Source: Clostridia bacterium (lineage in GTDB: Bacteria > Bacillota > Clostridia > TANB77 > UBA1234). From it: DNA of 64,000 nucleotides. A program made the position numbers and the translations under genes. Numbering within the stretch: position 1 is the first letter of the stretch; each line of letters starts with the position of its first letter. The stretch lies in contig JAFUGE010000005.1 in assembly GCA_017469545.1 (NCBI GenBank), forward strand, positions 1 to 64,000, read 5' to 3'. Below the pieces are notes generated by a model. It saw only the letters and a list, made by a program, of their open reading frames with translations, made no database searches and was not told the DNA's origin. This document shows, piece after piece, positions 28,300 through 29,016 of this stretch.

Positions 28300-28695
28300 A
28301 TGCATTATTGTTTGAATTGTAATTCTATATTAAAAAACAAAAGTAAAAAATATTGTTCTAACAAATGTCAGAAAGAATATGAATATAAGGATTATATTAG
28401 AATGTGGAAAGCTGGCAAAGTTTCTGGTATGCGTGGAAAATATCAATTATCAATGCACATTAGAAAATATATTTTTGAAAAGTATAATAGCCAATGTTCA
28501 ATCTGCGGATGGAGTAAAATCAACCCATATACAAAAATGCTTCCCTTAGAGATAGAACATAAAGATGGAGATTTTGAAAATAATTCTGAGGATAATTTAA
28601 TTCTCTTATGCCCTAATTGTCATTCGCTGACTTCAACTTATAAAGGAGCTAATGTAAATCACGGAAGAAAAGCAAGGAAAAAGTATAGCATTTGA
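28300..28695 (+). CDS. Free-standing HNH endonuclease
   Basis: A 131-residue protein. An N-terminal zinc-knuckle (CLNCNSILKNKSKKYCSNKC) is followed by a helical linker and the HNH core (residues about 63-120): CSICGW, EIEHKDGDFENNSEDNLILL, CPNCHSL. This gives the metal-site His pair, the central Asn and four zinc Cys expected of an active nuclease. ATG follows GTGAGGTGACTAACT. It faces the intron-bearing tRNA-Thr gene across a shared terminator, only 36 nt away. HNH nucleases of this size serve as homing enzymes, phage nucleases or restriction parts; the neighbour makes a homing link worth testing. Confidence 0.85.
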   Translation: MHYCLNCNSILKNKSKKYCSNKCQKEYEYKDYIRMWKAGKVSGMRGKYQLSMHIRKYIFEKYNSQCSICGWSKINPYTKMLPLEIEHKDGDFENNSEDNLILLCPNCHSLTSTYKGANVNHGRKARKKYSI

Positions 28696-28701
28696 TAACG
28701 A

Positions 28702-28732
28702 AAAAAGCTGTAAGGTTAACTTACAGCTTTTT
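28702..28732. terminator. Bidirectional terminator between the HNH gene and the tRNA operon
   Basis: Perfect 13-bp stem AAAAAGCTGTAAG/CTTACAGCTTTTT with loop GTTAA gives a T-run in both directions. Confidence 0.9.
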
Positions 28733-29016
28733 GGAGCCAGTGATCTGAATCGAACAGACGACCTACTGATTCGTACCACTACAACTTTCGTTGCCACTCA
28801 AAGTGTTTGCAGTCTGGACTTGCTCTTTGCCATAGCTTACGCCTTAGGCACACCGTATAAAGTCTCTACACTCGGTATTTCTACCTAGCTCGGGATTGGC
28901 ATGTGCTTAAACGCATTTAGCTTTCCCCGAATTAGCGGTGTCCACCTTATCTATTTCTAAATAAGGGTGCAATTTTGTTTACAAGTCAGTTGCTCTACCA
29001 ACTGAGCTACACTGGC
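28732..29016 (-). tRNA. tRNA-Thr (anticodon TGT) interrupted by a group I intron
   Basis: The two halves join to a normal 76-nt tRNA: acceptor GCCAGTG/CACTGGC, D-arm GCTCAGTTGGTAGAGC, anticodon stem ACTGA/TCAGT with loop CTTGTAA (TGT), T-loop TTCGATT, discriminator T and encoded CCA. The coding halves are 29016-28981 and 28771-28732. The break falls directly after anticodon base 36. Without splicing the gene could not give a usable tRNA, so the intron must be active if this is the only reader of ACA/ACG-type codons. It is last in the operon Lys-Glu-Thr. Confidence 0.95.
28772..28980 (-). ncRNA. Group I self-splicing intron in tRNA-Thr (IC3-like), 209 nt
   Basis: The pairings of a group I ribozyme are all visible on the minus strand. 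P1: exon TGT with intron GCA, giving the U-G pair at the 5' site. P2: CCTTAT/ATAAGG. P3: ACACCG/CGGTGT. P4: TCGGG/CCCGA, inside AATTCGGGGAAAGC and GCCAATCCCGAGC. P7: GACTT/AAGTC, inside GTAGAGACTTTATACGG and AAGAGCAAGTCC. P8: TGCC/GGCA. P9 hairpins: CACT-TTG-AGTG and CAAC-GAAA-GTTG. The last base is G, as required. The 5' end (AAACAAAATTGCACC) closely resembles the cyanobacterial tRNA-Leu intron. It contains no reading frame. Confidence 0.92.

Follow-up and report, generated by a model that had tools for sequence, protein, structure and literature searches.

The 64,000-nucleotide stretch of Clostridia bacterium DNA analysed here (assembly GCA_017469545.1, contig JAFUGE010000005.1, positions 1 to 64,000; the window) carries a free-standing gene for an HNH endonuclease (28300..28695, + strand; 131 residues, TGA stop at 28693-28695), which converges on a tRNA-Thr(UGU) gene interrupted by a group I intron (29016-28732, − strand). 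The simplest account of the data is that this HNH protein belongs to a lineage of homing endonucleases dedicated to the tRNA-Thr(UGU) gene, and that nuclease and intron would spread by collaborative homing, in which the HNH would cut intronless tRNA-Thr(UGU) genes and repair would copy both the intron and the HNH gene, a reading to which we assign a probability of roughly 0.83. The initial annotation of this locus was right in stating that free-standing nucleases mobilising a nearby intron devoid of an open reading frame (ORF) are known from phages, the case in point being F-CphI, which acts with the ORF-less group I intron in psbA of cyanophage S-PM2 (PMC6083498; see also the review PMC3984707).

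From sequence comparison we infer cleavage, the cut site, protection by the intron, co-conversion and self-splicing, so that the intron and the HNH gene would constitute a two-part mobile unit. The HNH would recognise the uninterrupted tRNA-Thr(UGU) gene (ACTGACTTGT|AATCAGTAGGTC), at a site most likely spanning the part of the anticodon region that the intron occupies in the donor, and would cut it; repair from a donor would then copy the intron together with the neighbouring HNH gene, the latter by co-conversion of the flank. The donor would be spared because its intron splits the recognition site, and self-splicing would give back a functional tRNA. After fixation the HNH gene would decay and the intron would later be lost, leaving an empty site open to reinvasion. 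Homologues encoded within the intron at tRNA positions 36/37, and phage homologues beside tRNA-Thr(UGU), bear indirectly on the target site.

As delineated by ARAGORN with introns allowed, the interrupted tRNA-Thr(UGU) gene comprises 76 bases plus an intron of 209 nt, namely, on the − strand, a 5' exon of 36 nt (28981..29016) whose last base is U36 of the anticodon, the intron (28772..28980) inserted at positions 36/37, and a 3' exon of 40 nt (28732..28771) with an encoded CCA. Both ARAGORN with default settings and Rfam at its gathering score missed this tRNA, and the finding accounts for a tRNA-Thr gene that escapes standard annotation. The interrupted copy is the sole tRNA-Thr(UGU) found in the genome, where tRNA-Thr(CGU) and tRNA-Thr(GGU) have no intron, so that splicing is presumably needed. 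The ARAGORN coordinates place the HNH stop codon exactly 36 nt from the CCA end of the tRNA on the opposite strand, as had been noted initially, and the earlier description of the intron as lacking a reading frame also holds, its longest stop-free stretch being of 38 codons. One terminator common to both genes, as had been proposed, is a reasonable interpretation, since the gap contains a 13-bp hairpin with T-runs on both strands (28702..28732, no strand assigned; −17.2 and −15.2 kcal/mol by strand, z −5.4 and −6.0), probably a shared bidirectional terminator of HNH and tRNA-Thr, though it is absent from the output of a simple terminator scan.

The pairing recurs among relatives. In a survey of 191 genomes of the window's order, in which HNH was sought by whole-genome protein search and the intron by an RNA model (Thr type, >170 bits), a full-length HNH homologue was found in 26 genomes (one with an in-frame stop) and a Thr-type intron in 33. 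Twenty-four of the 26 also contain the Thr intron, one (G124) has a contig that ends inside the intron, and one (G121) is intronless; among the 33 intron genomes, besides the same 24, five retain HNH fragments only and four no trace of HNH. In G015, the two parts of the pair sit on two contig ends. No intact HNH of this family was detected in genomes of the order that have only Tyr, Asn, Leu or Lys introns, which ties the HNH to the Thr site. Regular expressions had also been applied to look for HNH near the Tyr and Asn introns but were dropped in favour of the whole-genome protein search, as they recovered only 4 of 80 positives. In a class-wide search of 291 sampled genomes, the full-length HNH was confined to this order. 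In all 20 full-length loci first inspected, the 3' end of tRNA-Thr(UGU) lies 39-239 nt from the HNH gene, but the relative orientation is convergent in family f1 (5/5) and codirectional in family f3 (15/15), with different outer flanks; in f1, the homology beyond the tRNA extends to the HNH cassette and little more.

Intron and HNH come and go rapidly, and do so together. An rpoB tree comprising 68 genomes, of which 28 have the Thr intron and 40 lack it, requires 17 changes for the intron and 14 for intact HNH, and in 13 independent pairs of genomes differing in the intron, HNH changes in the same direction in about nine and in the opposite direction in none (median p 0.004). Thus, the comparison of relatives that had been recommended as a check bears out the association, both by this phylogenetically independent co-change and by the presence of 24-25 of the 26 full-length HNHs at an intron-bearing tRNA-Thr(UGU), and the pairing is not due to chance. 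The HNH of the window is 72% identical to that of one f3 genome, with rpoB at 70%, whereas elsewhere HNH identity is usually below that of rpoB, a difference that hints at a possible transfer between families.

Traces of loss are also found. The genomes G125 and G074 are near-identical in rpoB, but the former has intron and HNH, while in the latter the tRNA-Thr is uninterrupted and nothing but the final codons of the HNH gene is left. C-terminal HNH fragments adjoin an intronless tRNA-Thr in this genome and in G183, G162, G181 and G045, showing that HNH was once present there, and these fossils record later loss; similar fragments adjoin an intron-bearing tRNA-Thr in G186, G111 and G099, and internal deletions of HNH are found in G140 and G033. 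From our reading of codirectional loci (e.g. L014, L015, L085), the Shine-Dalgarno sequence AAAGGAG of the downstream, conserved short-chain dehydrogenase gene lies inside the 3' end of HNH, as does, in many of them, its start codon. The C-terminal fragments may well persist because these signals lie within them.

The same nuclease also occurs inside the intron. The 80 best HNH homologues in a scan of named genomes, which formed a second collection, include 20 that are encoded within a tRNA-Thr(UGU) intron, in the P5 loop and at the same 36/37 site; their hosts are 19 metagenome-assembled genomes (MAGs) named as Bacilli, Mycoplasmatota, Erysipelotrichaceae or unassigned, and one Clostridia MAG. 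Three viral contigs (L241, L243 and L245) share this arrangement. Most of the intron-encoded ORFs run some codons into the intron core (...KYSLYANPEL), whereas the free-standing copies stop near KYS. The other 60 homologues are free-standing and, in 56 of them, tRNA-Thr(UGU) lies within 0.8 kb, and 55 of these 56 loci show at least the 3' end of the intron; for the remaining four, the tRNA is about 1.5 kb away in one (L192) and three are at contig edges. A related HNH was also observed inside a tRNA-Ser(UGA) intron on a viral contig (L284); the lineage is therefore not strictly tied to tRNA-Thr.

Free-standing homologues were further collected from viruses, where 57 distinct loci, nearly all in tRNA arrays, were compared by taking a distance within 500 nt as defining an immediate neighbour. 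tRNA-Thr(UGU) is such a neighbour in 31 of the 57, against 11.3 expected and a maximum of 21 in 2000 within-locus label shuffles, and no other tRNA approaches this value. Among ten named phages examined, it adjoins the HNH in seven (iF6, XbC2, OC, GAP32, SCTP-2, Ro1 and HdH2); in Jada the neighbour is tRNA-Thr(GGU), within a run of three Thr genes, and in RN05-S and cr116_1 tRNA-Thr(UGU) is not the immediate neighbour.

Some of these observations weigh against collaborative homing. The tRNA-Thr genes beside the phage HNHs are uninterrupted, and protection by the intron is thus not universal. Four genomes of the order (G031, G036, G151 and G164) carry the Thr intron without any HNH trace. Furthermore, the loci of G108 and G121 are almost identical, with the intron present in G108 and precisely absent in G121, where HNH is intact; an active enzyme should cut the latter, the exceptions being a very recent loss of the intron, an inactive or silent enzyme, or a mixed MAG consensus. 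The initial annotation had named homologues beside an intronless tRNA-Thr in relatives, combined with a lack of cutting at the empty site, as contrary to its proposal: the first of these was encountered this once, with an intact HNH, and not with the other 24-25 of the 26 full-length HNHs. An alternative that takes up these points is that a selfish HNH is directed at tRNA-Thr(UGU), or at the flank 3' of it, and promotes no spread but its own, with the intron as a passive bystander or at most a shield. The intronless tRNA-Thr(UGU) genes beside the phage homologues and the intact HNH of G121 would be expected, and the persistence of Tyr and Asn introns of the same family without HNH is consistent with it. 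However, changes in the intron and in HNH coincide on the host tree, and in other lineages the same HNH is physically within the intron at the same site, so that we consider this alternative unlikely.

With respect to the HNH protein itself, the N-terminal region of the window copy contains a Cys4 motif (C4, C7, C19 and C23), followed by the HNH motif with C66/C69 and C104/C107. The zinc cysteines, E84/E86/H87, N94/N95 and H108 are invariant in 20 homologues. Pfam HNH matches are just below the curated cut-off, while among annotated families the nearest are the HNH endonucleases of phages in PHROG (E 7e-19) and a homing endonuclease model. The AlphaFold2 model (mean predicted local distance difference test score, pLDDT, 84) has the HNH fold and, by VIA-align, gives Z values of about 6 with the HNH domains of DotN, Cap5 and McrA. 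The gene is present in a single copy in the genome of the window and is under purifying selection, with a median ratio of nonsynonymous to synonymous substitution rates (dN/dS) of 0.18. Candidates for damage were noted at loci of intron-bearing genomes (L097 and L221), namely an in-frame duplication, KYNNKYNN, in G108 and an altered motif with an early stop in L221, both of which may reflect HNH decay.

These features bear on two further interpretations. Some other homing endonucleases are maturases, and the location of HNH beside or within the intron could indicate that it is a splicing cofactor. Introns found with no HNH trace (four genomes) or with fragments only (five), and the related Tyr and Asn introns that have no HNH, speak against such a role, as does the invariance of the nuclease catalytic residues, and make it highly improbable. 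By analogy with McrA and Cap5, with which the fold is in common, and from weak similarity to the HNH domains of ZorE and of CBASS effectors, the protein could instead be an unrelated resident defence or restriction nuclease that lies beside the tRNA by chance. However, its best PADLOC match is a homing endonuclease model (1.2e-14), and the linkage to tRNA-Thr(UGU) spans two bacterial classes and many phages, leaving this reading with very little probability. Both interpretations were rejected.

The intron matches the group I introns of Rfam only weakly (21.7 bits, E 0.003). The canonical fold, with P2, P3, P4, P5, P6, P8, P9 and the P7 pseudoknot, nevertheless fits 18 aligned relatives: 99.0% of 918 cells are paired, 21 pairs are changed on both sides, and none of 500 shuffles scored as high. 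P7 is invariant across the alignment, and is thus paired, yet without covariation. The RNAalifold consensus was discarded, as it mispairs the P7 region, and the canonical pseudoknot was used instead. At the splice site, the 5' exon ends in U36 (exon ...CUUGU | AAACAAAAUUGCA...), which in our reading of the sequence is opposite the G of UUGCA as the U.G wobble of P1, and G is the last intron base in every one of the 18 aligned sequences. The intron is predicted to self-splice, restoring a working tRNA.

ORF-less tRNA group I introns form a family in the window's order (L121-L160), being found in tRNA-Tyr(GUA) in many genomes, in tRNA-Asn(GUU), and once each in tRNA-Leu(UAA) and tRNA-Lys(CUU); genes interrupted in this way escape default tRNA finders. 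In L224 (2563-2872), a tRNA-Tyr beside an HNH-bearing tRNA-Thr intron contains that intron again in near-identical form, but lacking HNH and provided with a P1 of its own, which looks like a recent jump between adjacent tRNA genes; L181 is similar. In L158 and L160, both of genome G043, introns of the same RNA family have an open reading frame ahead of them and tRNA-like 3' halves behind them; in L158 another HNH gene is about 2.3 kb away, and G043 may be contaminated (8%).

By combining these arrangements, it may be proposed, with somewhat better than even confidence, that one HNH lineage dedicated to tRNA-Thr(UGU) has been caught in every stage of the assembly and dismantling of a mobile intron, namely free-standing next to intronless tRNA-Thr in phages, free-standing next to the intron in one bacterial order and in two orientations, intron-encoded at one and the same site in another class and among viruses, and decaying to fossils once the intron was lost. 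Such a series from nature would connect collaborative homing with composite mobile introns. The question addressed by this set is how introns and endonucleases joined. The entry of a homing endonuclease gene (HEG) into the intron is favoured in PMC3984707, whereas in the recent survey of PMC10448857 it is regarded as unclear how collaborative homing arises, and an intronic HEG that is purged or lost is suggested as another route. In the HNH trees, all free-standing bacterial copies are on one side of a branch (94/93); neither a single origin of the intron-encoded state (p-AU 0.12) nor a single clade of all bacterial copies (p 0.45) was rejected, and the intron core is too short for its tree to be rooted. 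Since one nuclease at one insertion site is found in either arrangement, both models of origin can be tested by assay and phylogeny.

Compared with known systems, the proposed unit resembles F-CphI/psbA in that the intron would block self-cleavage and the nuclease would give the intron a means of spread. F-CphI, however, is a phage enzyme with an Endo VII motif and demonstrated cleavage of a protein gene, whereas the nuclease of the window is a short zinc-finger HNH on a bacterial chromosome, for which cleavage of a tRNA gene is proposed from comparison, and which, in contrast with F-CphI, also occurs elsewhere inside the same intron. There is also a likeness to the bacterial group I intron of a tRNA anticodon loop whose endonuclease acts on the anticodon region, but in the window the nuclease gene is not within the intron, the insertion is after position 36 of tRNA-Thr(UGU) and the target is a predicted one. 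A third parallel, cited in PMC10448857 and PMC13096335, is SegB of T4, a free-standing phage homing endonuclease of a tRNA region. Like the phage homologues described here, SegB lies in phage tRNA arrays, where it promotes inheritance of the tRNA region; the HNH differs in being associated with one isoacceptor, Thr(UGU), and in extending into bacterial introns. SegB is, moreover, a GIY-YIG enzyme rather than an HNH nuclease. Collaborative homing in phages is already known; an incomplete literature search retrieved no publication on a bacterial tRNA-Thr group I intron with HNH, nor a description of a bacterial chromosomal tRNA case with the nuclease in both arrangements. If correct, the present reading would carry collaborative homing beyond phages, to a bacterial chromosome and to a probably essential tRNA gene, and would suggest the tRNA arrays of phages as a source.

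Finally, the surroundings of the locus in the window include two conserved neighbours upstream of tRNA-Thr on the − strand, tRNA-Glu(UUC) (29029..29103) and tRNA-Lys(UUU) (29109..29184). Directly upstream of HNH, the product of 27442-28164 (+) has an RNase H-like N-terminal domain and a winged-helix/RepL-like C-terminal domain. Near the tRNA cluster, the region 30343-33258 (+) encodes a type IV secretion coupling protein and membrane proteins, which suggests an integrated conjugative element.
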